DNA from: a virus
Virus record (IMG/VR): IMGVR_UViG_3300035698_005524
Coordinates: 1-50,515 of that record
DNA length: 50,515 bases
Reading direction: 5' to 3' (one strand)
Shown: positions 34,601 to 50,080 of the stretch, piece by piece
How positions within the stretch are numbered: position 1 is the first letter of the stretch
Layout of the letters: every line of letters starts with the position of its first letter
The notes under the pieces: generated by a model
Told to the model about the DNA's origin: nothing
Database searches by the model: none
What the model saw: the letters and a program-made list of their open reading frames with translations, nothing else
Program-made: the position numbers and the translations under genes

Positions 34601-34725
34601 GTGGACAGGTAGTTGACAACCGTGTGACGAACTTCAAGGTGGACACCAAGCTTGACGAGAACACCATGATGCGTACAGTCTCGAACAAGTTTGACGAGTC
34701 AGCCAGGTCTAGGAGAGGGAGATGA
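31693..34725 (+). CDS. tail tape measure protein (1010 aa)
   Basis: Sets tail length. Residues about 60-260 form the PhageMin_Tail domain: T-V-F-M-A-T-E-V-A-E-G-M-Q-F-L-A-Q-S-G, then L-D-L-A-I-A-G-E-L-T and G-T-G-L-R-R-M-F. Hydrophobic membrane-like segments lie near residues 435-460 and 475-495 (V-L-L-T-P-L-G-P-A-L-L-V-V-A-L-A-F-G-G) and again near 800-845. The rest is helical. At about 1000 residues, and at the usual 1.5 Å per residue, a tail near 150 nm is expected. Followed by an ATGA overlap. Confidence 0.9.
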   Translation: MARNLGEAILRIRTDFGKAISGIDKVGKSLQTLGSGMQTMGRSSLVFGAGLSAALGKAAQAGISFEKRVDAVLARTQEGGPAFESLNKEARRLGRTTVFMATEVAEGMQFLAQSGLKTNDIIAAMPDVLDLAIAGELTMAKAADVAANAINAFGKKAGDFVQVADAMAIGAASSNTSVAQMGQAFGFVAAAAAPTKSTIEEVASAIGVLGNVGLKGGRAGTGLRRMFATLSKGGSSLEKKLAKLGLTLGDVDPNTNSLTQIIGKLAQVTPEAAKAFKVLEKRGVNVADTLTSLIESGMSSKEAMKALGKQAGLSDKEIMGMGRNAGVLFDIFGVRGAISTIALTNNLGKFNQILKKMKKNLKKGGGAAKKMAGVMQDNVAGALKLVKSRFTDIDIEVLTQIRVKLRAALKSLTDFLDKVLKWVSKNPKLVTQMVTLASKVALVATVFGTLALVVGTMIVSLAAFLKAWAAVSVLLTPLGPALLVVALAFGGLFLVVKNNKGSIAAFVRSLTNLDPAIQALLKLKNTFLRLGASIGGVLDALAKRLGAAWAGTLGRWVNSWLGSTAKVLGNLNDFLVKVELFLNRLSVAIKDGVALDFVEKEFLTAFPEAPDWIRRVLGWKDKFAAILSEMQLNIESSVSAMGTTLDFLALSFRGEFVGAAKQAQVVFSDVVDQMKADLATLKEPSGEGLSHLIEGITSFSELKEPSLSVLEKLWESMKNVLETAKLLNFDIPLKAIQGFIEGLSSGFSIDFAKHIELVSDMLKNSFLFLKNALVRVFGSLPEGVKGFGSLEDVLETVRVIFFAIGSFLGTTLSKGLTGAIALLAGVVRGIAAFSDGLFFLITDFDTFGTALKLTFSDWINDLIDAVLDGIREYFTGIMDDIAELLEEFEGDTVSTVGVVKTLFEGLFGFIKWGLGDALGDIRELLGEAEKLKGGVLPRVPGLPGLGGAKADLAGVGLANVAAIGGLGAGGGQVVDNRVTNFKVDTKLDENTMMRTVSNKFDESARSRRGR
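31772..31783. repeat. degenerate palindrome (GTAAAAGTTTGC, 10/12)
   Basis: Two mismatches; inside the start of the tape measure gene, read as G-K-S-L-Q. Listed because it is the only candidate in the 8-kb stretch lacking a good copy; chance occurrence is likely at this level. Confidence 0.25.
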
Positions 34726-35135
34726 CGCAAGCCCAGATAAAGTTAACCAGTGATGGTGCCTACACCCTCTTGCCACTCCAGCTCAGGTACAAGCCTCTCA
34801 TGCCGAAGAAGAGGTATACCCGGATGCCTGTTGTGGACGGGGTTGTCCAGCACACGGGGAACCAATTGTATCCCTCGGATGGAGTAATCCCCTGGTCGCT
34901 TGAAGCCGCAGATCAAGACGAGTTGGCACTGTTCATCGGGCTCTACAATACAACGACGGCCCCTACGTATGACTTTATTGGGTACTGGGGAGACGTGTAC
35001 GTTGTTAGGCTTAACGACATTGACGACCCCGATGTGCAGTCACGCCTGTTCAATCTCTCTGGTGCGTTCCACGTGGAATCCGTGACGTCCTACGTGTTGG
35101 CGTCCAGCTTCACGGACACCTCTGGCTCCAGTTGA
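34722..35135 (+). CDS. minor tail protein, distal-tail-like (137 aa)
   Basis: The first gene after the tape measure, in ATGA overlap with it, where distal tail or tail tip proteins usually lie. Beta-rich, with a Ser/Thr-rich C-terminus (T-D-T-S-G-S-S). Function by position only. Confidence 0.5.
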   Translation: MTQAQIKLTSDGAYTLLPLQLRYKPLMPKKRYTRMPVVDGVVQHTGNQLYPSDGVIPWSLEAADQDELALFIGLYNTTTAPTYDFIGYWGDVYVVRLNDIDDPDVQSRLFNLSGAFHVESVTSYVLASSFTDTSGSS

Positions 35136-35145
35136 TAGGTGACAC

Positions 35146-36627
35146 ATGGGTATGCTGTTCTCAACAAATGTTAGCATCGTTGAGGAGTTCACTCGACGCC
35201 TGACCTTCCTGGACGCGCCGGTACCCTATTCCCCTGCTGACGAGCGTAGGTATCGGCACACGAACGAGACGGTAACCCTCTCTTGGTCTGTCGACGCAGG
35301 TGTTAGCTTTTATATCTTGCAGACGGCGCTATCCCCCGAGTTTCGCGGGCCGTTCGTCAGAGGGTACAAAATAAGCAGTGCCGCGTTTGAGTCAGGTGGG
35401 CAGACCAGTCTCTCAACTGTGTCCGGTTCTTTTTACCCGGACGTGCCTGAGAACCCGGGAACGTACGCGTCAAAGACTCTCTCTATTGGTGTTGACTACT
35501 TCGTTGGTCTCCCCGTGTATTGGCGTGTGTACGCGCATGCTGCGGGGTCTAACTTTGTGGATGACTCTGGGGTGGGTCTCTTAAACCCGCGTGGAATTTC
35601 TCCTGCGTCAGAACCTCGGATGTTTCGGGTAACACCCCCGTGGCCAATCAACGTTGTTGGTGCGGCAGAGAAGGACAAGGGAGACGAAGATGGGAGTAAT
35701 TCGAGCGGGACTCAGATTGGGGAGTCCTCTCCAGAGACGCCCTCAATAACTGACATGGATGGAGACAAGTACATCTCTGCGGGGCAGTCAGCTAACGGCG
35801 TGGTGCGCGTCGAGTGGTCAGGCCCTGCGGAGGCTCCCTGGTCATGGGAGGCTCGTAACTTCTTTTGGATTACCGAGGACGACTTTGCTTGGGTGCCTGG
35901 CAGATCCACAGAGCGTTTTGTAGAATTCACAATTGATCCCGAGGCTCCCCATGGGTCTTTCGACGTCAGGTTCACCATCATCGACCCGGTAACGGGTAAC
36001 TCAATATTTCAGGATCACACTGTGGAAGTCCTGTCTACAGCGGAAGACTCAAGTGGAGGGTCGAGTTGGTCAAGTGTGTCGAGTGTCAGCAATTCTGACG
36101 GCGTAATATCCAACGGCGTCACTGATGTACTCTCTGACGGCGCAGGCAACTCTGAGGGCGGGTGTTCCGGTTCGTCTCTTGGGGTCACGTCTGCGGGGCA
36201 CACGGACCCATCAAGCCTTTCAAGCCCTTCGAGTGGGGGGTCAAGCCTTTCAAGCCTTAGTAGCCCCTCAAGTGGTGGCTCAAGCTTGAGTCTGTCGAGT
36301 GGAGGGTCAAGCCTGAGTCTGTCGAGTGGCGGGTCGAGTCTTACCAGTGTGCTGAGCCCCTCCAGCGCGTCAACTCTTTCCAGTGCGTCTTCTCTTTCCA
36401 GCGCGTCAAGCTTCTCTTCGGAGGGGTTCACTAGCCTGTCCTCCTTGGGGGAGACATCACAGTCTGACGGCATCTCAGCGAGTGACGCAGGCGGGGTAAT
36501 TTGCCTGGCAGCAGTCACGGGTGTCGATTGTGACACGGGGTGCTATCTTATCACTCCAGTAGCGTACCTGATAATTAACGGTAAACTGTACGAATCAGCC
36601 ACTGGATGCCCAGAGGACTGTCCATAG
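35146..36627 (+). CDS. tail-region protein with Ser-rich repeat segment (493 aa)
   Basis: Residues 1-165 and about 195-295 are beta-rich modules (the second with immunoglobulin-like strands, V-R-V-E-W-S-G-P-A and H-G-S-F-D-V-R-F-T). Residues about 298-445 are a Ser-rich segment built from S-S-G-G-S-S-L-S-L and S-S-A-S-S-L-S type units. The last 45 residues hold five Cys (C-L-A-A, D-C-D-T-G-C, G-C-P-E-D-C). AGG-type ribosome site at about eight bases. It precedes a second Ser-rich protein and the glycan block, so it is a likely O-glycosylation substrate, by inference. Confidence 0.75.
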   Translation: MGMLFSTNVSIVEEFTRRLTFLDAPVPYSPADERRYRHTNETVTLSWSVDAGVSFYILQTALSPEFRGPFVRGYKISSAAFESGGQTSLSTVSGSFYPDVPENPGTYASKTLSIGVDYFVGLPVYWRVYAHAAGSNFVDDSGVGLLNPRGISPASEPRMFRVTPPWPINVVGAAEKDKGDEDGSNSSGTQIGESSPETPSITDMDGDKYISAGQSANGVVRVEWSGPAEAPWSWEARNFFWITEDDFAWVPGRSTERFVEFTIDPEAPHGSFDVRFTIIDPVTGNSIFQDHTVEVLSTAEDSSGGSSWSSVSSVSNSDGVISNGVTDVLSDGAGNSEGGCSGSSLGVTSAGHTDPSSLSSPSSGGSSLSSLSSPSSGGSSLSLSSGGSSLSLSSGGSSLTSVLSPSSASTLSSASSLSSASSFSSEGFTSLSSLGETSQSDGISASDAGGVICLAAVTGVDCDTGCYLITPVAYLIINGKLYESATGCPEDCP

Positions 36628-36639
36628 GAGGGCCTTTTC

Positions 36640-39297
36640 ATGGCGAACTGGCCTATTGCAAACGCTTGCAACCACTGTTGTGACTTATCCACATCCACAC
36701 TGAGCAGCCTGTCCACGACGAGTGTTAGCAGCCTGTCCACGACGAGTGTGTCGACCACCAGTAACTCGTCTCTGAGCATTTCTCCCACGAGCCTTAGCAC
36801 TACCAGCGTAAGTAGTCTTTCAACGACATCCGTTTCAAGTTTGTCGACAACGAGTGTGAGTTCGCTGAGCACTACCTCGGTATCTTCTCTCAGCACTACG
36901 AGCCTCTCAAGTCTTTCGAGTGGGACTTTTACGTCAGTCAGTAGCTTTAGTTCACTCTCCACCACGAACCTTAGCTCAGTCTCCACCACGAGTGTGTCAT
37001 CGCTAAGTACGACCAGTCTCTCAAGTCTCAGCACAACGTCACAGAGTTCCCTTAGTACTACTTCGGTTAGCAGTTTGTCAACGACGAGCCTGAGTTCTCT
37101 GAGCAGCGGCGGGAGCAGTCTTTCCAGTCCGTCGTCTTTGTCCACGACAAGCCTCTCCTCACTCTCAACGACGTCTCAGAGCAGTCTTAGCACCACAAGC
37201 CTGTCTTCACTCTCCACGACGTCACAGTCGTCCTTAAGCACCACCTCTGTGTCCTCACTGTCAACTACAAGCGTTTCCTCCCTCTCAACAACATCCTTGT
37301 CCTCCCTCTCAACGACCAGCTTGAGTAGCTTGTCCAGCGGCGGAAGTAGCCTTTCCAGCCCCAGCAGCCTGTCAAGCTTGTCTACCGGGGGAAGCAGTCT
37401 TTCCAGCCCCAGCAGCCCGTCCAGCCTGAGTTCTTTTTCAACGGGTGGGTCAAGCCTGAGTAGTTTATCGAGTCCGTCCAGTGGTGGGAGCAGCCAGTCA
37501 GGAGGGAGCAGTCTTTCCAGCGTGTCGTCCCCCTCCAGTGTGAGCGTCAGCGACTTATCGTCTCAAACGTCAGTCTCAGTGAGTTACTCGTCTTCCCTGT
37601 CAACTCTTTCGTCGGTCTCTCAGAGTTTCTCTACGTCGTCAGCCCCGGAGTATGGCCCGTGGTACTTTAGGACGAGTTCAGCCGTTGACCGAGTCTACAC
37701 GTACGATAACAACTTTGCCGCCAAGGACTGGTTCTCAATTAACTTTGGGGTGGCAGCAAGGGACATTCAGGCTGAAGATGACGGTGTTGGTGTTTTCGAG
37801 GGGAACGCTCTACTACGCATAACATTTAGAGACTTCAGTGACTCCGCTATTGATGCTGCAATTGACTCCTGTTGGAACACCGACTTTGGAATAGCTCCGC
37901 GGTACGGCTCGGACGATGAACAATTGACGTGGGGTGTGGATTCAACGGCAGGGGCTGAAAAGTTATCTGTGTGCATAGGGTGTTCCGGCACCTACACGAG
38001 GACGGATGGCAGGATAATAGGTATCCGTGGGTGCACATATAACGGAACTGACATTGTTGTTCTTTACGCGGCGACAAACCAGGGGTCTGTCCGTGCGCAC
38101 GACCCCATCTCACTCGTGACCCAAGGAGCCCTTGACATATCGGGGAACTACTCAAACGACACGGGGGACCTCGTTGACGACATAGCCTACGTCGATGGTA
38201 AGTATTACATGGTCCAGCAGAACGGTGTGACCGGGGTGAGAATCCACAGGTTTGCCGCTGACGGGGTCTCTAACCTGCCAAGTACGTGGGAAGCCTCCTT
38301 TGACATTGACAACCCAGACCTCATAGGGCACCAGTTCTCACATCGTGATGAACTTAAGCCAACAGCTCTACTCTTGCCTGAGTTCCCTGTGTTGCAGATT
38401 GAAGGCTTTGACGTACAGGACGCCACCATGGCTTCGTTTACGGCAGACCCAGGCTCAATGTTGACTGACCCTGGCAACAACATTAAATGTGCTTTCCACT
38501 TCATACGGGAAACTCCGACAGGGAGCACGTGGAGCATATCACCTGCCATGAAAGCGGGTGAATGGCCAACATGTGTTGATGAGAATGATTATTTGATTGA
38601 CCCGATTGGAACGCGGATTACGGGCAGCACCGGTAACTGGACATTGACCATCATGGGGGTTGGGATGGGGGAAGGCACTTCGGGCCAGTCCTCGAATGGG
38701 GACACGGCAAGCAGTGACGGCCTCATAATGTGGCAGGGGACGAGCGACAAGAATCAGCCCTACAGCACGTACACACGAACGGGGGGTTCAGACTCCACGG
38801 CTACCTTGTGTGTTAGGCACTACGCGGGGGCTTTGCAGAATGGTGGTCGGTACATGGCCTGCATCCAGAAGGGGCAAGCGTACTGGACGTGGTGGGCCTA
38901 CCCAGAGAGCGTGGGCGTTTTAGCTGGGAACCCTTGGACCAAGGCAACGTATGCTAGTGCAACCCTGTCCTGCACAACCTTCACGTGGACGTGGACAACG
39001 ATGACGTGGCAAATGTGCTACCCGGTTGGGAACAGTGGCAAAGAAGAAAAGTTCGTGGGCGAACTAGAGGGTGGGAGGGGTTTGACCTTTCATGCAAAGA
39101 ATACATCAACATATTATGGGTACGCGCAGTCTTACTCGAAGATTTCGGCTAACCTGGGGTATGCCCCTGTTGTAATGGTATCCTTCACAACTGGTGTCAC
39201 GGGGTACCTGAAGGCTCGCCTCTTGTCTGGTGTCGTTAATGGGGCTCAGAGTTCCCGGTTCAGTTGGCAGCCAATCCCCTCGTGGCCAGCACCGTAA
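36640..39297 (+). CDS. tail fibre/tip protein with long Ser/Thr repeat stalk (885 aa)
   Basis: Begins with a Cys cluster (A-C-N-H-C-C, residues 9-14), then about 320 residues of nearly pure Ser/Thr/Leu repeats (units like S-L-S-T-T-S-V-S, with S-S-G-G-S-S blocks), then a 540-residue C-terminal part rich in beta strands, Trp and paired Cys, probably the receptor-facing domain. The repeat segment resembles serine-rich-repeat adhesins, which are heavily O-glycosylated by genes next to them; a sulfotransferase gene starts 16 bases after this one. Serine codons of both TCN and AGY types are mixed, so the repeats are kept as protein, not DNA. Confidence 0.75.
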   Translation: MANWPIANACNHCCDLSTSTLSSLSTTSVSSLSTTSVSTTSNSSLSISPTSLSTTSVSSLSTTSVSSLSTTSVSSLSTTSVSSLSTTSLSSLSSGTFTSVSSFSSLSTTNLSSVSTTSVSSLSTTSLSSLSTTSQSSLSTTSVSSLSTTSLSSLSSGGSSLSSPSSLSTTSLSSLSTTSQSSLSTTSLSSLSTTSQSSLSTTSVSSLSTTSVSSLSTTSLSSLSTTSLSSLSSGGSSLSSPSSLSSLSTGGSSLSSPSSPSSLSSFSTGGSSLSSLSSPSSGGSSQSGGSSLSSVSSPSSVSVSDLSSQTSVSVSYSSSLSTLSSVSQSFSTSSAPEYGPWYFRTSSAVDRVYTYDNNFAAKDWFSINFGVAARDIQAEDDGVGVFEGNALLRITFRDFSDSAIDAAIDSCWNTDFGIAPRYGSDDEQLTWGVDSTAGAEKLSVCIGCSGTYTRTDGRIIGIRGCTYNGTDIVVLYAATNQGSVRAHDPISLVTQGALDISGNYSNDTGDLVDDIAYVDGKYYMVQQNGVTGVRIHRFAADGVSNLPSTWEASFDIDNPDLIGHQFSHRDELKPTALLLPEFPVLQIEGFDVQDATMASFTADPGSMLTDPGNNIKCAFHFIRETPTGSTWSISPAMKAGEWPTCVDENDYLIDPIGTRITGSTGNWTLTIMGVGMGEGTSGQSSNGDTASSDGLIMWQGTSDKNQPYSTYTRTGGSDSTATLCVRHYAGALQNGGRYMACIQKGQAYWTWWAYPESVGVLAGNPWTKATYASATLSCTTFTWTWTTMTWQMCYPVGNSGKEEKFVGELEGGRGLTFHAKNTSTYYGYAQSYSKISANLGYAPVVMVSFTTGVTGYLKARLLSGVVNGAQSSRFSWQPIPSWPAP
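36658..36669. repeat. palindrome variant (GCAAACGCTTGC, 11/12)
   Basis: One mismatch; at the beginning of the long Ser-rich gene, read in a third frame as I-A-N-A-C-N. This shows the site is not kept for one peptide. Confidence 0.65.
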
Positions 39298-39312
39298 GTA
39301 GGGAGTAAGAAT

Positions 39313-40389
39313 ATGGCGTATCTCGTAAGCGGGACTGCCCGGAGTGGAACAAGTCTGTTCGTGGCATGCGTGCGGAAGGGCTTGGGGGAAGACAGGGTGT
39401 ATGGGTTGCACAGCCCGAGTGTCACCTGGCGGGAGAAAGCCATAGCAGAAGCTGTCAAGGATAACCCGGATTTTGGCCCTTGGCACGAGTTCACTAGGAA
39501 CAAGCTCTTCCCTGACGCGGACATGGAACAGGCACGCACAGATGAAATGAATCCCAATGGGTTTTGGGAATGCGAGTTCACTGTTTCTGGGTTGGTTTAC
39601 ACGTTAGCCTCGGCGGACTTCTTTGAAGCGGAGGAAGCACGCGAAGCTCCTATTGTTATGAAGATTGTGAGTTCCGGGTTACTCCGCACGAACCCCTCTT
39701 ATGTTGACGGTGTTGTTATGATGGTACGAGACTTCCGTAAGGTTGCTCTTTCGCAGCGTCACCTTTGGAGGAGGTCGCTCCAGAACATGATGCAGGCGAT
39801 GGCTCCCGAGGGGGTAAGCATTGATAATCCAGAAGTAGTAAGCCCCGAGATGTTCATTGGGAACGCACTTGCTGCTGCTCGGTGGTTCACGAGATACCCG
39901 GACGTACCTCGGATGGTGGTTGAGTACGACCAGTTCCTGAATAACCCAAGGCAAACGTTTGCCAACCTCGAAAAGTTCTTGGGCGAGCCTTTCGATGTGG
40001 ACGCGGCAGAGACCTGCATTGACACGTCCTTGAGCAGGAGCGGGGTTGAAGAGTACGAGGGCGGGATATGGGATGAAGCGGCCTACGCCTATGATTGCCT
40101 GCTCACGGGTTACTTCAAGGACATGATTGAGTTTTTTGAACAACCGCGCTCACAGTTTTCACGCTCGACAAAACAGTGGTTTTGCCTCCGTGTTGGTCTC
40201 GACGTATGTGATGACTACTGCAAGGGGTGCAAAGTGGGCGGTAACTTCCGGGCACAGCTTGCTCGTCACGCGGTTCAGCGTGGTATAGCCTGGGAAGGTC
40301 TCCCGTGTGCTTTCGAGGTTGCGTTTGACCTTGACAACCCGCGCGTCTCTATTGAAGAGAGCATTGAAAACAACTTTTGGGGTGTGTAA
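39313..40389 (+). CDS. sulfotransferase (358 aa)
   Basis: P-loop for PAPS at residues 5-16 (V-S-G-T-A-R-S-G-T-S-L-F) and 3'-phosphate site V-R-D-F-R-K-V-A-L-S-Q at 138-148, as in bacterial carbohydrate sulfotransferases. The C-terminal part carries a Cys cluster (C-D-D-Y-C-K-G-C near 296-303) not usual in the family. AGGGAG ribosome site. It opens the glycan block right after the Ser-rich fibre gene and probably sulfates the glycan added to it. The palindrome at 39951 is read as R-Q-T-F-A, the same peptide as in the other sulfotransferase although at a different position. Confidence 0.85.
   Translation: MAYLVSGTARSGTSLFVACVRKGLGEDRVYGLHSPSVTWREKAIAEAVKDNPDFGPWHEFTRNKLFPDADMEQARTDEMNPNGFWECEFTVSGLVYTLASADFFEAEEAREAPIVMKIVSSGLLRTNPSYVDGVVMMVRDFRKVALSQRHLWRRSLQNMMQAMAPEGVSIDNPEVVSPEMFIGNALAAARWFTRYPDVPRMVVEYDQFLNNPRQTFANLEKFLGEPFDVDAAETCIDTSLSRSGVEEYEGGIWDEAAYAYDCLLTGYFKDMIEFFEQPRSQFSRSTKQWFCLRVGLDVCDDYCKGCKVGGNFRAQLARHAVQRGIAWEGLPCAFEVAFDLDNPRVSIEESIENNFWGV
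39951..39962. repeat. palindrome site 8 (exact)
   Basis: Exact copy inside the second sulfotransferase gene, read as R-Q-T-F-A. Confidence 0.85.
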
Positions 40390-40913
40390 TGCCTTCCGAA
40401 TTAACAGACGAAAACGTTAAGAACATCAAGAGGATGCTGGACGAGGGGACGGTACTCTCGTTTATCATCAAGAAGTTCTACCCGAGAATACCCCGCAGGG
40501 TTATCCGGGGGGCCCTTGCAAAGAAGTATGGGTTCAAGAAGGTAAAGGAGCAACTAAATGCGATGGCGTTCGCCTCTACAAGGGCGTGGTCAATGCCTGA
40601 GGTTGCCCTGTGGACACCCACGCCCGTTCTTCAGAAGGCGCGTGACTTGATGGCAGCAAAGCTCGTTGAGATCGACGCGGTCCTTGAAGCACGCCCCCCT
40701 GACTTCAACCCGAAGACAGAAGCCAGGGTGTACGGCAGTGACGCGTGGGAGGATGAAGACGATGCGGAGGTTACTGCTCGCGCAGGCCGACGTGCCTTCT
40801 GCCTTATGTGTGACCGGTATGACCCAGCAACGGGGGTCTGCCGTGCGTGTGAGCGTCCAATGCAGAAGGTGACAAGACGGAAGAGTGCGACATGCCCGAT
40901 AGGCGAATGGTAG
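40389..40913 (+). CDS. zinc-ribbon protein, DUF6171-like C-terminus (174 aa)
   Basis: Starts in the stop of the sulfotransferase gene (TAATG). Residues 1-55 are basic and helical, possibly a helix-turn-helix; the centre is acidic; residues about 135-174 form a ribbon of the type C-L-M-C ... C-R-A-C ... C-P-I-G-E-W, close to DUF6171. Function unknown; possible scaffold or cofactor for the glycan enzymes, from context only. Confidence 0.6.
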   Translation: MPSELTDENVKNIKRMLDEGTVLSFIIKKFYPRIPRRVIRGALAKKYGFKKVKEQLNAMAFASTRAWSMPEVALWTPTPVLQKARDLMAAKLVEIDAVLEARPPDFNPKTEARVYGSDAWEDEDDAEVTARAGRRAFCLMCDRYDPATGVCRACERPMQKVTRRKSATCPIGEW

Positions 40914-43507
40914 AGGACTTGCCTTGTGAAGAGGTGAGTGTAATTTATGCCCATGCAACCCAGTGGATCGCGGCGAACGGGTCGGATACGCTGAAGCAAG
41001 AAGTCCAGTTGACTATAGACCTCTTTGAGAGGATGAACCACTGGACAGACTGTGAACGCGCGGCCCGCAAGAAGCGGATCATTACATACTGGCTTGCGGT
41101 AGACCCTGAAGCAACGATCAGGAGAAGTAAGATGAACGGAGTTGTTTACTACAACCGGGGCACCAAGTGCCTCGTTAGAATGACCGTATCCCTCCATTCC
41201 CTCCGCAAGCATTACGATGGCCCCGTCATGGTCCTCAATGACGGCGAGGCACACCCCCTCCTCAAGAACGTGTGCAAGGAACTCAGGGCTGAAGTTTTTG
41301 AGTTCGAGCGAATGCACGATCACCCTCTTGTCCAGAAGGTGCTGTGCATGAAGTATGCACCGTTTGACAACAACGTGTACCTCGACTCTGACACCCTTGT
41401 TCTCGCTCCCATTGGCCAGCTGCATGACTGGTGCGAAAAGGCTGGCGTTGTATTCGTTAACTTCGCGGACTGGGCAACTCGCGGCAAGACGATTCAGAAA
41501 CGTATCATGGAGTGGGACAGCCTGACCCCCGATCTCATCGACGCGGCACTGGACTACGGCACGGCCATCAATACCGGTGTGTACGCCTTTAAGAAGGACC
41601 ATGAGATTCTTCCAGTGTGGGCCAGGCTCACCCCGCTCGGTGCAGAGAAGAAGCTGTTCATCCCCGACGAAATCTGTGCTCAGCTGCTTGCACCTTGGTA
41701 CGAGCACTACCTGGCCCCGAAGGAGTGGAACGACTCCTGCAAGTATGGTGATCCGACAGTGGCGAAGATCGTACACTTCCACGGGTCCAAGCACGTGATG
41801 AATAACCCGTCCGCGAAGCTGTGGCGAGCAGCCTTCTGGGAGTGCAAGGACCTGTACGGGCTGACGGACTCGCTGGGAGACAAGCGGCTCCACGACCACA
41901 TGAGAAGGTGCAAGCTGAAGATTTCGCCGTACAGGGGTGCCGTGGATGCTCCCACACACCTTACCGAGGCAGACCCGGACACACCCCCGGCCAAGCCCTC
42001 AGAGCCCCCACGGGGGCCTGCTACGCCAAAGAGCCTCCCTCCGTCTATCACGGCCCAAGCAGTCCCTCCAGATATCTTGGCAGTGACCCCCGCGACACCA
42101 GAGGGTCTCCCCTTGACAAACCAGAGCACAACACCAATGCCAGAGGTGGCGGACCCCCTGGAGGCCCCCCCAGTTGATGAGGTGCTCCCTAAGTGGCTCG
42201 ACGTCGTTACAACCGTCGTTCCCCGGTGCACCGTTGCGGAGTCTCTCGGATCATTCCTTGACCATTTCGACAGGGCAGGTGTGAAGCTACGTTGGCTCGT
42301 GCATTACGATCCGGTCGAAGCCATGCAGGATGATGGCGAGACAATGACTCAGATTGAGAAGCTGGCAGGGAGGTTTAACGACATAATCTTACACGTGTCC
42401 CCTGAGAACGTTGGTATGGCCGCGTCACTGAAGTGGTGTTACGACCAAGTCAAGCACGACGTGATTTGCTGGGAAGACGACAAGACGACGACGGTCAACT
42501 TCAGCATTAGCCAGATCCTTGATAAGGGAGCGGACTTCGTGACCTTCCAGCAACGCAGGGTGAAGGCTGGGTCAACGGCGCCCGCGTTCTGGCGGAAGCA
42601 TGTCATTGATCACGCGATTGCCGGGTGGGACGCTGAGGAGTTCGATAACACAGACGTGGAGTATTGTTTGACGAAGATGCTTGGAACCGCGTTTACGCGT
42701 AGTCACGTGGCGCTCAGTCTCAAGGACATTGGTGTTACCGCGCAGGCTGATATGAACGTTGTGAGGATCAAGGAGAAGCCCGGGGGCCCTCTACGGTACG
42801 TGGAGTCCAATGACTCAGTCACGTTCGTCACAGCCGTCAACGCGCCTTACCTTGAAAAGCTCCGCAAGAACTGGCCAGCCTGGCACCAGCGGTTCTGCTT
42901 ATCCGGGTACCCTGTTATCGTCTTCTACAACGGCATTGAAGAGGAGCAACTCGACTTCATTGAAGGCACCGACATTCGGCTTGTGCCATGGTCAATGCCG
43001 GAGTACGACACGGACCGTGAGCTTATGCTTTCATCGTTCGTCCTCGGGACAGCAGAGCACGTTGACACGGACTACTGGATCAAGTTCGATGCTGACTCCC
43101 AGTGCAAGACCAGGGGTGACCAGCGGTACTTCCCGTTCTGGAAGGAATGGGAAGGTACCCATGACCTGTGTGGTCACCGTTGGGGGTACACCCGCGTGAA
43201 GGGAGACCCGAAAGCAACCCAGCACTGGCTCAATCGACTTGATGACTGGTGGAAGGAACACTTCCCAGAAAGTGAGCCCATCTTCCCACCGGCGATCCCA
43301 CTCAATTCGCGTCATGGCCACAAGCGAATCAACTCGTTCGTTTGCTTCCACAGAACGGCGCTCGTCAAGGCCGCTGTAGAGATGCTTGACGGTTGCAAAC
43401 GTTTGCCTGTCCCGTCCCATGATACGTTCCTTTGGTACGTAGCTCACAGGCACCCAGACTTTAAGGTTGGTTACCCGAACATGAAGAAGCTGGGGTTCTC
43501 ACAATGA
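40892..43507 (+). CDS. multi-domain glycosyltransferase (871 aa)
   Basis: Three GT-A-like parts. Residues about 81-330 resemble GT8 (V-Y-L-D-S-D-T-L-V near 160, the DxD metal site). A Pro-rich linker spans about 365-430. Residues about 432-635 look like a degenerate GT2 (C-W-E-D-D-K-T near 526). Residues about 640-871 are another GT-A (W-I-K-F-D-A-D-S near 729). The first 80 residues form an extra helical domain; ATG 41131 with AGGAG upstream is an alternative start that would omit it. Probably builds or extends a glycan with two or three sugars. GT assignments are by motif; substrates unknown. Confidence 0.75.
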   Translation: MPDRRMVEDLPCEEVSVIYAHATQWIAANGSDTLKQEVQLTIDLFERMNHWTDCERAARKKRIITYWLAVDPEATIRRSKMNGVVYYNRGTKCLVRMTVSLHSLRKHYDGPVMVLNDGEAHPLLKNVCKELRAEVFEFERMHDHPLVQKVLCMKYAPFDNNVYLDSDTLVLAPIGQLHDWCEKAGVVFVNFADWATRGKTIQKRIMEWDSLTPDLIDAALDYGTAINTGVYAFKKDHEILPVWARLTPLGAEKKLFIPDEICAQLLAPWYEHYLAPKEWNDSCKYGDPTVAKIVHFHGSKHVMNNPSAKLWRAAFWECKDLYGLTDSLGDKRLHDHMRRCKLKISPYRGAVDAPTHLTEADPDTPPAKPSEPPRGPATPKSLPPSITAQAVPPDILAVTPATPEGLPLTNQSTTPMPEVADPLEAPPVDEVLPKWLDVVTTVVPRCTVAESLGSFLDHFDRAGVKLRWLVHYDPVEAMQDDGETMTQIEKLAGRFNDIILHVSPENVGMAASLKWCYDQVKHDVICWEDDKTTTVNFSISQILDKGADFVTFQQRRVKAGSTAPAFWRKHVIDHAIAGWDAEEFDNTDVEYCLTKMLGTAFTRSHVALSLKDIGVTAQADMNVVRIKEKPGGPLRYVESNDSVTFVTAVNAPYLEKLRKNWPAWHQRFCLSGYPVIVFYNGIEEEQLDFIEGTDIRLVPWSMPEYDTDRELMLSSFVLGTAEHVDTDYWIKFDADSQCKTRGDQRYFPFWKEWEGTHDLCGHRWGYTRVKGDPKATQHWLNRLDDWWKEHFPESEPIFPPAIPLNSRHGHKRINSFVCFHRTALVKAAVEMLDGCKRLPVPSHDTFLWYVAHRHPDFKVGYPNMKKLGFSQ
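43395..43406. repeat. palindrome site 9 (exact)
   Basis: Exact copy near the end of the 871-residue glycosyltransferase gene, read as C-K-R-L-P, the same peptide as site 2 in an unrelated gene. Confidence 0.85.
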
Positions 43508-44097
43508 GAACAGAAGTAACCCAGTACGATGAGACGCCCTTCCTGTCTATCGTGACCCGGTGTAGCCTACGGCCAAACTGCTTGAGGCGGCATCAGGCTT
43601 CCCTGGACGAACAGGTATGCCGGAGCTTTGAGCACGTTTGTATCATAGACGACACGGGTGCTGGCCTTCGCGTGGCAAACGGAGCGTTCGCTGAGCACAA
43701 GAGTAGTGTGAACGGTGAGTACGTGTTTATACTGGATGACGATGACCGGCTTACGAGTATGCTTTTCGTGGGGATGCTGAAGGACTGCTGTGACCGGCTG
43801 AGCCCCGACATTGTTTTGTTCAAGATGGCAAGGAAAGGCGGCGTCATACCAACCCCGAAGGTGTGGCGGAAGTCGCCTGTGAAGGGCCACATTGGGAGTA
43901 GCTGTTTCGCGATAAGGCGAGACCTGTGGAAGGAACACATAGGTGCGTTCGCGGGAGGGCGTTGCGGGGACTTTCGATTCCTCCGCGCGGTCTGGCCTCA
44001 CCTGTCAAAGATAGCGTGGCTAGACTTCGTGTTCAGTGAAACCATGCAGGTGGGCCGGGGGAAACCAAGGGAGAGGGTCACGTCATGGCCAACTTAA
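43504..44097 (+). CDS. family 2-like glycosyltransferase (197 aa)
   Basis: Short GT-A enzyme: L-S-I-V-T-R at 14-19, I-I-D-D-T at 47-51 and F-I-L-D-D-D-D-R at 75-82, the acidic metal and donor site. At 197 residues it is a minimal catalytic domain. ATGA overlap with the previous gene ties it to the large glycosyltransferase. Confidence 0.75.
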   Translation: MRTEVTQYDETPFLSIVTRCSLRPNCLRRHQASLDEQVCRSFEHVCIIDDTGAGLRVANGAFAEHKSSVNGEYVFILDDDDRLTSMLFVGMLKDCCDRLSPDIVLFKMARKGGVIPTPKVWRKSPVKGHIGSSCFAIRRDLWKEHIGAFAGGRCGDFRFLRAVWPHLSKIAWLDFVFSETMQVGRGKPRERVTSWPT

Positions 44098-44121
44098 GGC
44101 AGTGTGACGTGAGAGGTCTCC

Positions 44122-44682
44122 ATGACTATTTTTGACTTAGACGATTTTTGTGAGCCGTGGGCCGACTTGGAACTTTTGCACAAGCTGCACGACGCGGTAC
44201 CAAATGTGAAGGTGAACCTGTTTACGATAGTGGGCAAGGCGAGTGCCTCGTGGCTTACTTCCGTGGCAGAGCCCTGGATGCAGTTTATCCCCCACGGGCT
44301 TTACCACGACGATTCACGTGAGTGTGAGCGTTGGGACCAGCAACAGAGCGAAGACTACCTTGACATGGTGGAGTCCATTGGCTTGTTTCAGAAGGGCTTT
44401 AAGGCACCCGGTTGGCAAATATCGGACGGTATGTATGTTGCGCTCCTGTCACGGGGCTACTGGGTAGCAGACCATGAGAAAAACGCGCTTCGCAGACCCA
44501 CAGGGCTAAGGGCTTACGTGGTAAACTGCCGTTGCCGGGAATGCTTGAGTTGCCAGCATACTCGCGTGCATGGTCACATAACGAACGTATGCCGAAACGG
44601 CTTGTCGGAGAGATTCGAGAAGTACGCAGCAATGACAGGCGAGTTTGCCTTCATAAGTGACACTATAGGAGACCCAGTTTAG
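44122..44682 (+). CDS. polysaccharide deacetylase-like protein (186 aa)
   Basis: NodB-fold pattern: F-D-L-D-D-F near the start (Asp 7 and 8), P-H-G-L-Y-H-D-D at 57-64 giving the H-x-x-x-H metal pair, and F-K-A-P-G-W at 93-98 matching the substrate-groove motif. Such enzymes remove N-acetyl groups from sugars such as GlcNAc. A Cys-rich segment (C-R-C-R-E-C-L-S-C) near 137-145 is unusual. Placed between two glycosyltransferase genes, so it probably edits their product, leaving free amines that could be sulfated or methylated. Confidence 0.65.
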   Translation: MTIFDLDDFCEPWADLELLHKLHDAVPNVKVNLFTIVGKASASWLTSVAEPWMQFIPHGLYHDDSRECERWDQQQSEDYLDMVESIGLFQKGFKAPGWQISDGMYVALLSRGYWVADHEKNALRRPTGLRAYVVNCRCRECLSCQHTRVHGHITNVCRNGLSERFEKYAAMTGEFAFISDTIGDPV

Positions 44683-44684
44683 TA

Positions 44685-45377
44685 ATGGTCACTCTTATCA
44701 CCAGAGCGTTCAATAGACTTGAGTACACGGCGATGTGTATCAGGGATGTCCACGAAAAGGCTGGGGGCACTTACCGTCACATCGTTGTTGACCAAGGGAG
44801 CACTGACGGGACACCTGAGTTTCTGCATTCCCTTGTTCACGAGGGGTTTTACCCGCTGGACGTTATTCATCTTGACAAGAACACGGGGGACGCCGGGGGC
44901 ATGTTGTTGGGCTTTGAGAGGGCGACAACTCCATACGTTATGCAGTGGGACAACGACTGTATTCCATTGGCTGACAACTTTATTCCTCGTTTGGTGGCCA
45001 TCATGGAAGCAGACAAGGAGCTTGCCGGGGTGCAGATGTACACCACAGGGACAGTGAGAGTCCTGCGTTACCCGGAGGAAAGTCTTAACTTAGCGGGGGA
45101 AGATGTGCGTGTCGTGCCATGGGTAACGTGCTGTTCCATCTACAGGTCGTCCACCGTGGAATCTGCTAATGTTTTGGAGTCATCTTTACGGAGCCGGGAC
45201 TGGGGCGCGAGCTTTTCTAAAGCCTCAACGGCAGTAGGTTTCAAGCTCGGGATACTCCCCCACATGAAGGTGTGGCACATTGATACAACACGAGGCCAGC
45301 ATAAAAGGTACCCCAGGTATTTTTCGTCTTTTTCAAGAAGGTCTAAGAACAAAGGCATTTGTTACAAGGATCAGTAA
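44685..45377 (+). CDS. family 2 glycosyltransferase (230 aa)
   Basis: Classic GT2: T-L-I-T-R-A-F-N at 3-10, V-V-D-Q-G-S-T-D-G-T at 34-43 for the nucleotide sugar, and M-Q-W-D-N-D at 86-91 as the DxD-type metal site. Basic C-terminus may touch membrane or acceptor. Starts three bases after the deacetylase stop. Confidence 0.85.
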   Translation: MVTLITRAFNRLEYTAMCIRDVHEKAGGTYRHIVVDQGSTDGTPEFLHSLVHEGFYPLDVIHLDKNTGDAGGMLLGFERATTPYVMQWDNDCIPLADNFIPRLVAIMEADKELAGVQMYTTGTVRVLRYPEESLNLAGEDVRVVPWVTCCSIYRSSTVESANVLESSLRSRDWGASFSKASTAVGFKLGILPHMKVWHIDTTRGQHKRYPRYFSSFSRRSKNKGICYKDQ

Positions 45378-45395
45378 CACGTCAGGAGTAAGAGC

Positions 45396-45929
45396 ATGAA
45401 AGAACTACGGGAAGCATACGAGCATTACACGGCAACGTACTCAGACGAGAAAACGGTTATGGGATGGCCGATGATCGTCTACATGAAGGAGTTGCTTGAG
45501 AAGGAACGCCCACGCATTGTAGTTGACCTTGGATCAGGGTTTAGCTCATTTGTCACGCGGCACACCTTGCCGGAGTCTGCACACTACTCGGTGGACACAG
45601 ACACGGGTTGGTTGTGGAAGACACATCAGTTCCTGAGTGAGATGCACACGCAAATGGGAACCCTGCTGACGTATGATGAGTACAGAGCAACGCGTGTTCA
45701 GTCAGACTTTTCGTTCTACGACCTTGGCAACTGTGGCAGACGCCGATGCGGGTTCCGCTCGGCTAACGCCGCATACGCATGGTCCCGGTGCATTGGGACG
45801 ATGCTGCTTGATGACACAAACAGAAGCTGGTATAGGGACAGTCTCATCGTGAGTTGTCCCGGTGCGGTCCACCTGAAAGAAGACACGTGCGACCAGTGGG
45901 GGCGTTATGGCTCCATCGTCAGGAGATAG
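45396..45929 (+). CDS. SAM methyltransferase-like protein (177 aa)
   Basis: Motif I (R-I-V-V-D-L-G-S-G-F-S-S, 40-51) points to a class I methyltransferase, but motif II onward is diverged and the protein is short, so activity is uncertain. The second half is Cys/Arg-rich. Probably adds methyl groups to sugars in this block, by context. AGGAG ribosome site. Confidence 0.65.
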   Translation: MKELREAYEHYTATYSDEKTVMGWPMIVYMKELLEKERPRIVVDLGSGFSSFVTRHTLPESAHYSVDTDTGWLWKTHQFLSEMHTQMGTLLTYDEYRATRVQSDFSFYDLGNCGRRRCGFRSANAAYAWSRCIGTMLLDDTNRSWYRDSLIVSCPGAVHLKEDTCDQWGRYGSIVRR

Positions 45930-45973
45930 CGAGTATGGGAACCAGGCTACGCCAACGGGATAGAATGTAGCAG

Positions 45974-46534
45974 TTGCTTGAGGCTGTCCCCGATCTTGGC
46001 AAACTTCATCTGCGTCACCTTGAGATCCTGTATGTAGGTGCCCGGGTAGAGAAGCGAGGGAACTTCCGGGTCCAGTTCCGCAAGCAGATGGAGATGTTCT
46101 CCATGATGGGGCACGTTACCATTCTTGAAGTGTTCCAAGAGAACGTGGATCGGCTGCGGGCTCACGAGGCGTACGGCGAGCTATACCACGAGGTAGTGTG
46201 TGGTGACGTGCGCGACTTGGAAAACGTTCTGCCGTTTCGGGAGTGGGGTATCATTGTTTGGTGGCATGGCCCAGAACACGTTACAGCAGACGAGCTACCC
46301 GGTGTGCTTAACACCCTTGAGGACGCTGCGGATGACCTCGTGATCCTCGGGTGCCCCTGGGGGGAGTACAAGCAAGGCCCAGAGTATGGAAACGAGCACG
46401 AATGCCACGTGAACACTCTGTGCTGTGAAGACTTGGAGGCCCTTGGATACTCTGTGTACGTGTGGGGTGACATGGGTGTGCGTGACAAGAACAACCTTAT
46501 CGCAGTTAAGTGCTGTGAAGAGAGCAGTGCGTGA
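45974..46534 (+). CDS. methyltransferase-like protein (186 aa)
   Basis: Rossmann-type layout: E-I-L-Y-V-G-A-R near 18-25, I-L-E-V near 50, V-V-C-G-D-V-R near 74-80, then W-W-H-G-P-E-H-V near 94-101 and L-G-C-P-W-G-E-Y, as in SAM-dependent enzymes of glycan clusters. A TAG two codons upstream forces a TTG start at 45974; this is the weakest point, and the ribosome site is poor. Confidence 0.6.
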   Translation: MLEAVPDLGKLHLRHLEILYVGARVEKRGNFRVQFRKQMEMFSMMGHVTILEVFQENVDRLRAHEAYGELYHEVVCGDVRDLENVLPFREWGIIVWWHGPEHVTADELPGVLNTLEDAADDLVILGCPWGEYKQGPEYGNEHECHVNTLCCEDLEALGYSVYVWGDMGVRDKNNLIAVKCCEESSA

Positions 46535-46537
46535 CCA

Positions 46538-47308
46538 ATGAAGATTGAGGTGATAGTTACGAGCCACTTCTTCCAGTGCCGTCTGTGCTGGATGGCCAGT
46601 TCCATGCTTAAGCAGGACGGGGTAAAAAAGGGGCGCCGGACAAGGAAGAGACACCCGGTACCAGACCTGTGCTTATGCGCGGCTGACATGGACGGCACGG
46701 GGGACCCAACGACAAAGGAGGTCCTTGATTACTTCTCCAAGAAAGGCCTCCAGACGCGTTACGTTGGCTACAAGGACACGGAGCGCCTCCAGTACCGGGG
46801 GTGGGTGCGAAATGACCAGATCACGGAGAGTGACGCTGACTGGTTGCTCTTTGCTGACGCGGACATGGTGTACCCTCATTTCTTCTTTTGCAGGATGGGA
46901 CTCCTCCTGACATCAGACGAGTACAAGGATGAGACGTGCATGCTCTACACGGGGCGGTATTCGACTACGCTTCCTGAAACGAACAAGCTTGTCAATTCGT
47001 TGCAGTACCCTAGTGTGGTTGATGATCCTTTTGAGACTGCCTGGGAGTTACCCAAGCGCAAGAAGTCAAACATTGGCGCCGGGTTCTGCCACTTGATCAA
47101 CCGGAAGGCTCTCATGGAGAAGCATAAGGGCCTGTATGCTAATCCGAAGAGGGTACGGGACCAGTCATGGAAGATAGGTCAGAAGGCCCGTAGCGACATC
47201 TACTTCAGGCGCAGGGTGGGTAAACGCAAGATTGCCCTGCCGTACATGGTTCATCTTCAGCATGTCCGCGATTCACAAGTGGGCAAGCACACGGAGGCAC
47301 AGCGATGA
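46538..47308 (+). CDS. GT-A type glycosyltransferase-like protein (256 aa)
   Basis: I-E-V-I-V-T-S-H-F at the start, then W-L-L-F-A-D-A-D-M at 102-110 with the D-A-D metal site, and a G-A-G-F-C-H-L-I segment later, match glycosyltransferases of the GT2/GT-A type. The basic patch near 30-40 and C-terminal R-R-R-V-G-K-R-K may contact nucleotide or lipid. Overlaps the next gene by ATGA. Confidence 0.7.
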   Translation: MKIEVIVTSHFFQCRLCWMASSMLKQDGVKKGRRTRKRHPVPDLCLCAADMDGTGDPTTKEVLDYFSKKGLQTRYVGYKDTERLQYRGWVRNDQITESDADWLLFADADMVYPHFFFCRMGLLLTSDEYKDETCMLYTGRYSTTLPETNKLVNSLQYPSVVDDPFETAWELPKRKKSNIGAGFCHLINRKALMEKHKGLYANPKRVRDQSWKIGQKARSDIYFRRRVGKRKIALPYMVHLQHVRDSQVGKHTEAQR

Positions 47309-48573
47309 ATCTCCTCGGTGAATACCCCGTTATGTGGACCTGCATGGGTCACCAAGTCCAACTCCAGAACACCCTTCGCGGGGGGTGTGCTTGGCTGGTT
47401 GTGAACGGCCCGTCCCTGAATGAGATCGACAAGGACAAGTTGTTCCTCCCTGGTATCTTCAAGATGGGTGTGAACAACGGCCCAAAGGCGTGCCGCCCGA
47501 ACGCGTGGGTCTGCGTCGACCCACCGGACAGGTTTCTGACGTCAGTCTTGTTTGACCCGACGATAATGAAGTTTGTGCCCCGGGGTTTCTGCAAGAAGAA
47601 CTTGTGGGACACTTACCATGACCGCCCCTTGAAGAGCACGCTTACTGATGCCCCCATGGTCTTCGAGTTCGACCGGGATAACACCTTTGATCCCGAGACG
47701 TTCCTGACGTCCAGAACGTTCAATTGGGGCCTGGGGAAGCATGAGAAGTATGAGGACCCAAAGACGAAAGAAACGGTCATGGGCGTCCGCACGTGCATGC
47801 TCGTGGCATTGAAGACCCTGGTCTACCTTGGTGCCCGCACGATCTTCATTGTGGGGTGTGACTTCAACATGGTACCGGACAAGCCCTACGCGTTTGAGCA
47901 GGGCAAGCATGAGGGAGGGTGCAAGTCCAATAACAACAGTTACCGTGGCATCAATATCTACATGCGGAACCTCCGTCCGGTATTCGAGAGGTTTGGCGTC
48001 AACGTCTATAACACGTACGCCCAGAGCGGTCTGAAAGCCTTTGACTTCGTTGACTTTGAAGAAGCGATAGGGTACTCTATCGCAAGGGTTGGTGACCCGG
48101 ACAAGGAAAGCACACAGGGCATGTATGAGGTACGAGGGCGCAGTAAGAAGAAGGTTGAGAAGCAGGTAGCGGAGCGGAAGAAGGACGGCCACTACAAGCC
48201 TCCGGCTAGCCTGAAGCCTGTGGAGGAGAAGCCGGAGTACAAGAAGCCCCCCCTAGAGGCGGTTCACAAGCCGGGTAAGTCCGTTGACAGGGACTACCTG
48301 TGGGAGCACCGTCACGAGTTTGCCAACGTCTACCGTGAGCTTCGCAGGAAGGTCGCTAACATTGAGCAGAAGTTCAAGGAGTACGACAGAAGCCCAGGCG
48401 GGTGCAAGGGGTGCTCCAGAAGCAAATATTTGCAAGCGTTTGCAGAGAGCGTGTCAAACGTTATCGCGGGCTCGCCTGACAAAGCGATCAAGGCGAAGAT
48501 ACTCCACCCGGAGGATTACATCACGTACCGTGGACAGTTATGCGCCATAGGGAGCTTGGGTAAACATGCCTAG
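47305..48573 (+). CDS. DUF115/MptE-like glycan protein (422 aa)
   Basis: Residues about 28-230 resemble the DUF115 group, related to Campylobacter motility-associated glycosylation factors and MptE: A-W-L-V-V-N-G-P-S-L-N-E-I-D at 29-42 and later T-I-F-I-V-G-C-D-F-N near 188. DUF115 proteins in bacteria help add nonulosonic acids to flagellin Ser/Thr, which would fit a Ser-rich substrate here. The rest holds a Lys/Pro-rich linker (about 280-330), a helical segment and a C-K-G-C motif like that in the second sulfotransferase. Overlaps the hub gene by eight bases. Confidence 0.65.
   Translation: MNLLGEYPVMWTCMGHQVQLQNTLRGGCAWLVVNGPSLNEIDKDKLFLPGIFKMGVNNGPKACRPNAWVCVDPPDRFLTSVLFDPTIMKFVPRGFCKKNLWDTYHDRPLKSTLTDAPMVFEFDRDNTFDPETFLTSRTFNWGLGKHEKYEDPKTKETVMGVRTCMLVALKTLVYLGARTIFIVGCDFNMVPDKPYAFEQGKHEGGCKSNNNSYRGINIYMRNLRPVFERFGVNVYNTYAQSGLKAFDFVDFEEAIGYSIARVGDPDKESTQGMYEVRGRSKKKVEKQVAERKKDGHYKPPASLKPVEEKPEYKKPPLEAVHKPGKSVDRDYLWEHRHEFANVYRELRRKVANIEQKFKEYDRSPGGCKGCSRSKYLQAFAESVSNVIAGSPDKAIKAKILHPEDYITYRGQLCAIGSLGKHA
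48422..48443. repeat. overlapping pair of palindrome variants
   Basis: GCAAATATTTGC (48422-48433, central CG replaced by TA) and GCAAGCGTTTGC (48432-48443, one mismatch) share two bases. Inside the DUF115-like gene; the second unit is read as L-Q-A-F-A. Confidence 0.6.
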
Positions 48574-50080
48574 CATAAACAGAAACGAGATCATTTCGTG
48601 GAGTGCCTCCTTCAACTTGAGGGGGGCTCCGTCCGCGTCTGTAGTCCTCGTGAACAACGCCGACAAGCTCAGTGTTGATACAGTTGACCTCACAGGCGCC
48701 AGAATCAACCTTGAACTCCTTCCAGTCAACGATGACGCCTTCTACGGCCCTCCAGTGCCCCTTGAGACATCATCTGGTGAGGTGATCCCGTCGAGCGGGA
48801 TAACAGACTCCGAAGTAATCTTTGACGTGTTCGCGGGGCGGGTCAAGAACCAGAGTCCAGACAACGATGAGGTGGGCCAGAAGTTCACAGTTAGCCTTGA
48901 CGCTTCGAGTGCAACTGAGGTCCTCGTTGACACCCCCGTGTCTACAGAGACGATTGACATGGACGGGGCCGAGTTGATGGCCTACCTCCTTGTCACGTAT
49001 GGGGGGCTCGACCCGACTCTTGTCGGTATCGTTGAGGACAACGGGGAACACTTCAGCAACGTCGTGATTGCAGAGGACTCTCTGATTGAGGCTGTCCGTA
49101 AGGTAGCAGAAGCGTGTAACGTGGAACTGTGGGTGGGGTATGGCGGTACGATTGTAACCGGACTGAAGAAGGACAGCACTTCCCCCATCGACTACGCATT
49201 CAAGGACGAAGACATCTCGGCAGCGATTGACGAGAACCTCTCAGAGACAGCCTACCCGTCTGTTGCGGTTGTACGAGGGCGTTACGTTGGGAGTGATGAG
49301 GGTGCACGCACCGCTGTTGTAACTGCGCATACTCGCGTGGCAATGGCGAGGGAGCCTAACAACCTCGTTACGCGGGTAAGACCCAACCAAAGGATAAGTG
49401 ACCTCCAGGCAGCAACGGCAATCGTGAACACCCTTGGGGGGACCGCAGAGAGAGGTAACGTGATAGGGCTCATCAACGACGACCTTTACATCCGGTTCGT
49501 GCCTCCGGAGGGCACTCCGTTTGTTGTGGGTGAGAGGAATTTGCTTACGTTTTCCGTAGACGCGTACCTCATGTCGTTCGGTGAAACAGTGATAACTGGT
49601 TTCGACGGCATTGGCGACGGTCGTGAGGTGGGTCAGGACGCTCTTGACATCCTCCGTGCCATTACGTCGGGGCAGAGTGCGAAGGCCCGCTCGTACGCGC
49701 CTCCTGTTAATAGCCACAGGGGCGCGCGTAGGCTTGATGAACCTATTAAGACACGTGTGGAAGTTACCATCTTTAACGCGGACGCAGTTGAACATGTTGG
49801 CGTGGCTTATACAGAGGTCAATAACGAGTACATACAAGACGCTGCACAGGCCGAAGTTATTGGTGACCGCGTTCTTTACGAAGGTACAATGGCACGGCGA
49901 ACGTTCTCGTTCTCTGGTCCGTACATTAACGGAGTGGGTTTGAACTCCGTTGTGACCATCCCGATCAAGGAAACCACTGTTAAGGGTTTGGTGACGGGCC
50001 ACACCATAAACTACAGTGCTGAGAACGCTTCAGCATCAAGCACTTACGAGGTAACGTCTCTGCCGGTACCGCCAGCATAA
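48566..50080 (+). CDS. tail hub/tip protein (504 aa)
   Basis: Last tail gene in view. The N-terminal part alternates strands (S-W-S-A-S-F-N, A-S-V-V-L-V) as in baseplate hub or tip proteins. Residues about 165-230 contain a domain-like segment (S-L-I-E-A-V-R-K-V-A-E-A-C-N), and a beta-rich C-terminal half follows. It starts inside the DUF115-like gene. The glycan block thus interrupts the tail genes, and this protein follows as the first structural gene after it. Role assigned by position and fold pattern. Confidence 0.6.
   Translation: MPSINRNEIISWSASFNLRGAPSASVVLVNNADKLSVDTVDLTGARINLELLPVNDDAFYGPPVPLETSSGEVIPSSGITDSEVIFDVFAGRVKNQSPDNDEVGQKFTVSLDASSATEVLVDTPVSTETIDMDGAELMAYLLVTYGGLDPTLVGIVEDNGEHFSNVVIAEDSLIEAVRKVAEACNVELWVGYGGTIVTGLKKDSTSPIDYAFKDEDISAAIDENLSETAYPSVAVVRGRYVGSDEGARTAVVTAHTRVAMAREPNNLVTRVRPNQRISDLQAATAIVNTLGGTAERGNVIGLINDDLYIRFVPPEGTPFVVGERNLLTFSVDAYLMSFGETVITGFDGIGDGREVGQDALDILRAITSGQSAKARSYAPPVNSHRGARRLDEPIKTRVEVTIFNADAVEHVGVAYTEVNNEYIQDAAQAEVIGDRVLYEGTMARRTFSFSGPYINGVGLNSVVTIPIKETTVKGLVTGHTINYSAENASASSTYEVTSLPVPPA

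Follow-up and report, generated by a model that had tools for sequence, protein, structure and literature searches.

Introduction

Serine-rich (Ser-rich) repeat adhesins are long proteins encoded beside a glycosyltransferase (GT) gene cluster, with GtfA/GtfB and an accessory Sec system. Maf proteins, the flagellin O-glycosyltransferases of the Maf_flag10/DUF115 family (PF01973), use nonulosonic acids to glycosylate Ser/Thr residues of flagellin before it is built into a surface filament, and their central PF01973 domain resembles Cst-II (PMC11339370). In this study, we analyzed DNA of a tailed phage, the complete IMG/VR record IMGVR_UViG_3300035698_005524 of 50,515 bases (hereafter the window; its genes are named by their first base), in which Ser-rich tail protein genes are followed by a block of predicted modifying enzymes that includes a DUF115-like gene, 47305. 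From this arrangement an earlier note had proposed that the phage decorates its own tail fibres with a sulfated glycan.

We found that DUF115-like genes recur in phages and bacteria beside Ser-rich proteins that are otherwise unrelated; therefore the DUF115-like enzyme probably attaches sugars to Ser-rich stalks. We favour, with fair confidence, the idea that a portable enzyme set O-glycosylates Ser-rich segments, which in this phage would be its own tail stalks (36640, 35146 and probably 26930). We infer from the genes both that the target is located in the virion and that it is modified at all.

Results

DUF115-like genes accompany Ser-rich proteins in phages

The proteins of the window that enter the comparison are the following.

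26930..27553, + strand: third Ser-rich protein, a small tail-type domain with a Ser-rich insert (approximately residues 112-188).
35146..36627, + strand: tail protein with a clade-conserved N-terminal region (FN3-like by eye) and a Ser-rich stretch at residues 300-445.
36640..39297, + strand: Ser/Thr-rich stalk protein with a short Cys motif, a ~330-residue array of SSLSTTSV-type repeats and a C-terminal domain without known family.
40892..43507, + strand: three-domain GT (weak GT2 by Pfam; clear homologues elsewhere).
46538..47308, + strand: GT-A glycosyltransferase (weak GT2 by Pfam; clear homologues elsewhere).
47305..48573, + strand: DUF115/MptE-like enzyme of predicted sialyltransferase fold (fold model and homologue searches).

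Open reading frames (ORFs) were called mechanically, and most of the contigs compared are fragments. A protein was regarded as Ser-rich when it had at least 24 Ser in 60 residues, a threshold chosen after the data had been seen; the control maximum was 19. A search with 47305 and its homologue in contig G028 led to a 264-kb viral contig, G052 (L149/L152), and later scans added further phage contigs, one of which is a duplicate phage. In G052, the gene of a 903-aa Ser-rich protein stops 17 bases short of the DUF115-like gene. Domain 1 of 40892 has a homologue fused to the latter (36%, 1e-47), and homologues of domain 3 of 40892 (2e-33) and of 46538 (5e-25) follow, as do two methyltransferase-like genes. 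Homologues of 46538 were found within the same cassette in G047, G051 and L159 as well as G052, and in other phages domains 1 and 3 of 40892 either stand alone as genes or form a fusion with the DUF115-like protein. A Ser-rich protein was present in 6 of the 8 phages with the DUF115-like gene versus none of 20 related contigs without it (Fisher p = 7e-5; here and below the p-values overstate independence, since there are near-duplicates among the control contigs and close relatives among the copies). In the window phage and G052 the Ser-rich gene adjoins the DUF115-like gene or shares its operon; in G047 and G049 it lies 8 kb off.

At L149:9668-11056, a GT was also observed whose fusion partner may be a radical-SAM-like segment (CQLGCFNCDRNC, by eye).

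DUF115-like genes accompany Ser-rich proteins in bacteria

Further scans with the DUF115-like family yielded eleven Verrucomicrobiota/Planctomycetota contigs. The family is rare: besides two centres, it was found in 2 of 387 Verrucomicrobiota and 5 of 391 Planctomycetota genomes, that is, in 7 of 778 genomes surveyed from the Planctomycetes-Verrucomicrobia-Chlamydiae (PVC) group. The bacterial copies were found by a profile search blind to Ser content. A Ser-rich protein lay within 10 kb, in most cases directly adjacent, in 7 of the 10 copies surveyed (from seven genomes, one of which contributes three copies, so that the lineages represented number fewer than ten), versus none of 19 control windows of 20 kb taken at random from these genomes, where the maximum was 19 Ser per 60 residues (p = 8e-5). 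Over all bacterial copies examined, 18 of 24 had a Ser-rich neighbour.

Outside the Ser stretch the Ser-rich neighbours are mostly unrelated, being tail-fibre-like, LamG-like, Hint, RHS and other proteins, many of them singletons. Their common feature is the Ser-rich segment, and this points to the segment as the substrate. Hint-type Ser-rich proteins of Planctomycetota directly adjoin the DUF115-like gene in L166, L167, L168, L185 and L190-L193; L166 is prophage-like, with capsid and tape-measure genes, and L193 also has a tape-measure-like gene. RHS-type proteins with Ser-rich stretches are encoded near the DUF115-like gene in L161, L162, L164 and L165. The coupling of Ser-rich protein and enzyme cassette, for which a comparison of relatives had been suggested, is supported by both independent phages and bacterial loci.

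Modelled fold of the DUF115-like protein

A fold model of 47305 from a 14-sequence alignment (predicted local distance difference test score 88, predicted template modelling [TM] score 0.86) had the sialyltransferase CstII as its best PDB match (prob 1.00, E 2.8e-3, TM ~0.4), and viral fold matches in BFVD were MptE-like proteins (7e-7 and weaker). The gathering score of PF01973 (34.6 bits) was not reached by 47305 (12.2 bits) or by its L166 homologue (19.6 bits). The earlier assignment of 47305 to the DUF115 type is supported by the modelled MptE/CstII-like fold but not by the Pfam cut-off. Because the model matches CstII, which the Maf domain resembles, we infer that sugar transfer to Ser/Thr would be its best-supported activity.

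Ser-rich proteins and their repeats

Over ~330 residues of 36640, Ser accounts for 50% and Thr for 17%, and in 35146 Ser reaches ~44% across 145 residues; peak Ser counts per 60 residues are 35 in 36640, 35 in 35146 and 29 in 26930. When aligned, the G014 homologue of 26930 has a short loop at the position of the insert, without the Ser-rich insert. For the C-terminal part of 36640, phages yielded no homologue.

The Ser-rich repeats are under protein-level selection, because the 18 SSLSTTS units of 36640 show saturated synonymous sites. The proportion of synonymous differences among them was 0.80 and that of nonsynonymous differences 0.32; picking the units by motif biases the latter low but does not affect the saturation. 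Independent synonymous draws would be expected to give a mean nucleotide difference of 0.437, and the units gave 0.448; the codon family (TCN vs AGY) differs in 51% of Ser-Ser comparisons among them. In each of the 13 carriers examined, Ser codon usage came close to the maximum entropy (2.1-2.55 of 2.58 bits).

In the Ser-rich genes of G049, G051, G726 and G396b, successive Ser codons alternate between TCN and AGY at 0.65-0.70 vs 0.45-0.50 at random, as if DNA repeats were avoided.

Tail slot of the window phage and its close relatives

Terminase, portal, protease and capsid genes lie at 11-18 kb of the window and the tail module at 21-50 kb. Between the two tail genes below, a slot holds two Ser-rich tail proteins and ten further genes.

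34722..35135, + strand: conserved small tail protein opening the slot (comparison with relatives).
48566..50080, + strand: conserved tail protein closing the slot (phrog_1887; profile match of relatives 1.7e-52).

The ORFs at 35146-48573 were all recovered at the same coordinates, in a single direction. The layout described earlier, Ser-rich tail proteins (35146, 36640), then the enzyme block, then tail genes, was confirmed, with the tail resuming at 48566; a third Ser-rich protein, 26930, absent from the earlier list, also precedes the block.

Relatives with the same tail order were gathered via capsid and tail-gene alignments. Their slot, between the homologues of 34722 and 48566 (L120-L136), usually contains a GNT-I-like GT, a small DUF6171-like zinc ribbon and a GT4-methyltransferase fusion, to which some add sulfotransferase-like proteins, methyltransferases or 2-oxoglutarate oxygenases. 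Profiles of these slot enzymes gave no match to the block of the window. In 22 related phage contigs (1.28 Mb), no protein had more than 22 Ser per 60 residues, and the top few resemble non-coding ORFs. A GT cassette in the tail slot is a habit of the clade and alone uninformative on Ser-rich substrates: because relatives often carry non-homologous GTs without a Ser-rich protein, GT genes in the slot do not by themselves imply such substrates. This comparison was at one time read as refuting the link between Ser-rich proteins and enzymes, a reading dropped because the profiles show the enzymes to be non-homologous and the DUF115-like search reversed the conclusion.

Several searches were negative: for relatives of the major capsid protein in bacterial genomes, for single proteins (47305, tape measure, terminase) and for the SSLSTTSV DNA pattern in viral contigs, and, by tblastn in isolated phages, for 39313, 40377, 40892, 47305, the C-terminal part of 36640 and the L157 homologue.

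Other enzymes of the block

The remaining genes of the block are as follows.

39313..40389, + strand: sulfotransferase (PF00685) with 3'-phosphoadenosine-5'-phosphosulfate-type motifs SGTARSGTSL and RDFRKVALS (by eye).
40377..40913, + strand: protein with a C-terminal zinc ribbon, CxxC..CxxC..CPIGEW (phrog_13558, 8.5e-6).
43504..44097, + strand: GT2-like enzyme with a DDD motif (sole match the PHROG glycosyltransferase phrog_14775, 1.4e-4).
44122..44682, + strand: possible polysaccharide-deacetylase-like protein, weak (motif by eye; best score 0.05, not significant).
44685..45377, + strand: GT2 glycosyltransferase (PF00535, 1.5e-19).
45396..45929, + strand: methyltransferase-like protein (S-adenosylmethionine motif by eye; no Pfam match).
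45974..46534, + strand: methyltransferase-like protein (by eye; no convincing Pfam match).

Of the enzyme identities given in the earlier note, 39313 and 44685 exceed the curated gathering scores (Sulfotransfer_1, 22.8 vs 22 bits; GT2, PF00535, 70.9 vs 23.3 bits), the others are weaker by profile, and the deacetylase and methyltransferases are assigned by motif. The zinc-ribbon protein 40377 matches a DUF6171 protein of G028. A hydropathy scan revealed no evident transmembrane helix in any block enzyme.

The window has one clear sulfotransferase, 39313, and a weak one outside the block, at 6631-7548 on the - strand (PF03567, E 0.006, below cut-off). Among the other cassette phages, a sulfotransferase was found only in G052, as a weak match ~68 kb from the DUF115-like gene, and on this ground we rejected the idea that sulfation is a core feature. 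It may be a local addition in the window phage but does not belong to the conserved association; the case for the "sulfated" part of the glycan proposed earlier is thus weak.

Elsewhere in the window, a class 3 lipase gene lies within the tail module (28117-28818, + strand, 1.5e-28), with a weak homologue at G001:29876. In several relatives, a GT9-like gene is located shortly 3' of the capsid gene (L124-L127, G001:28121, G003:16311). Its counterpart in the window, at 18856-21777 (+ strand), encodes a 973-aa protein with GT9-GT4 and a second GT9-like part; over its first 37 residues, this protein matches one of G005 at 56%.

Discussion

In the mechanism that we propose, the block would be a late-expressed, non-membrane O-glycosylation cassette. 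In the cytoplasm, before the tail is assembled or while it is, 47305 would put the first sugar on Ser/Thr hydroxyls of the stalks. It would draw on an activated sugar made by the host, perhaps cytidine monophosphate (CMP)-nonulosonate, as the analogy to CstII and Maf suggests. Further sugars would be added by 40892 with its three domains, by 46538 and by the GT2 enzymes, and the sulfotransferase, the deacetylase and the methyltransferases would complete the glycan. The product may be a stiff, hydrated, protease-resistant glycan stalk close to the tail tip.

Several observations weigh against this proposal. The Ser-rich genes of G050 and G051 are 20-30 kb from the DUF115-like gene, G048 has no credible Ser-rich protein, and none above the threshold was found in L159, L160 and L169 or near 3 of the 10 bacterial copies surveyed. 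The earlier note had regarded relatives with the enzymes and without a Ser-rich protein as favouring host glycan modification, and here the result is split: clade relatives retain GTs in the slot without Ser-rich proteins, but these are unrelated to the block, and for G028, the sole relative with a homologous DUF115-like gene, which is accompanied by a multi-domain GT, the 25-kb fragment encodes no Ser-rich protein. The CstII similarity is remote, as the E value above indicates, and 47305 scores below the PF01973 cut-off. MptE, a pterin diphosphokinase, belongs to the fold family, which leaves sugar transfer a prediction. In the block, no genes for the synthesis of a donor sugar were noticed.

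The cassette may glycosylate the virion with another structural protein as its main acceptor, such as the tail tube, a Cys-rich or FN3-like tail protein or the capsid, the Ser-rich segments being at most secondary. Many relatives without Ser-rich proteins have slot GTs and the GT9-like gene after the capsid gene, and capsid and tail tube glycans have been reported in mycobacteriophages (Freeman et al. 2023, according to the citing passages in PMC12619734 and PMC11256854). However, the DUF115-like family tracks Ser-rich segments, and no other shared partner, across phages and bacteria, and we regard this alternative as unlikely.

Somewhat less likely still is that the enzymes remodel host surface polysaccharide, for receptor masking or superinfection exclusion, with the Ser-rich stalks serving as flexible linkers that carry no modification. 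Changes of host serotype by phage GTs are a familiar phenomenon (work cited in a passage of PMC12619734), and the GT sets in the slots of relatives without Ser-rich proteins would fit such a role. This explanation, however, has to accommodate block enzymes without an evident membrane helix and genes placed inside a late tail operon in a phage where no integrase was noticed, and it leaves the association of Ser-rich proteins with the DUF115-like gene unexplained. That the DUF115-like enzyme adds a non-sugar group of phosphoryl or pyrophosphoryl type to Ser-rich segments, as MptE does on pterin, is suggested by the presence of MptE in the fold family (the PF01973 name and the MptE-like annotation of viral fold matches) but is very improbable, since the best solved fold matches are sialyltransferases and GT genes usually travel with the DUF115-like gene in phages.

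Glycosylation of Ser-rich stalks can also be put in a wider form, which we offer tentatively and are slightly inclined to doubt: the DUF115-like enzyme and partner GTs would be a portable O-glycosylation module of phages, prophages and Planctomycetota/Verrucomicrobiota, and the Ser-rich insert would be an acceptor tag that turns almost any carrier (tail fibre, RHS, Hint) into a glycan stalk, its codons scrambled against DNA repeats. If stalk glycosylation is true, phages make their own heavily glycosylated tail stalks through a dedicated enzyme family, and the same enzyme accounts for Ser-rich segments on RHS and Hint proteins of PVC bacteria. A testable role would also follow for an enzyme family that has no name, and for low-complexity Ser-rich proteins, which tend to be overlooked. 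Among openly licensed PubMed Central papers, we found none on phage tail glycans together with Ser-rich proteins.

Among known systems, the Maf O-glycosyltransferases share with 47305 the CstII-like fold of its model. Unlike Maf, 47305 falls below the PF01973 cut-off, only the central-type domain of the Maf three-domain architecture is recognisable, the proposed acceptors are Ser-rich low-complexity segments and several GTs accompany the enzyme; no flagellin gene was noticed in the window. The likeness to Ser-rich repeat adhesin systems drawn in the earlier note holds for the long Ser-rich repeat domain of 36640 beside a presumed GT cluster. It does not extend to the enzyme families, as no block enzyme matched a GtfA/GtfB-type priming pair in Pfam or NCBIfam, or to the carriers, which are phage tail, prophage and RHS proteins, not cell-wall adhesins; accessory Sec components (SecA2/SecY2/Asp) were not seen among the window proteins scanned. 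In mycobacteriophages, too, phage GTs are inferred to decorate the phage's own virion, with sugars on capsid and tail-tube subunits in the accounts of Freeman et al. 2023 given in passages of PMC12619734 and PMC11256854, whereas the proposed acceptor here is a Ser-rich stalk, with a DUF115-like enzyme. The autotransporter heptosyltransferases TibC/AAH (PMC4358343) are a different enzyme, and the GT9-like domain of this phage is at 18856, outside the block; yet, as we propose for the tail stalks, they transfer a sugar to Ser of a repetitive surface protein.

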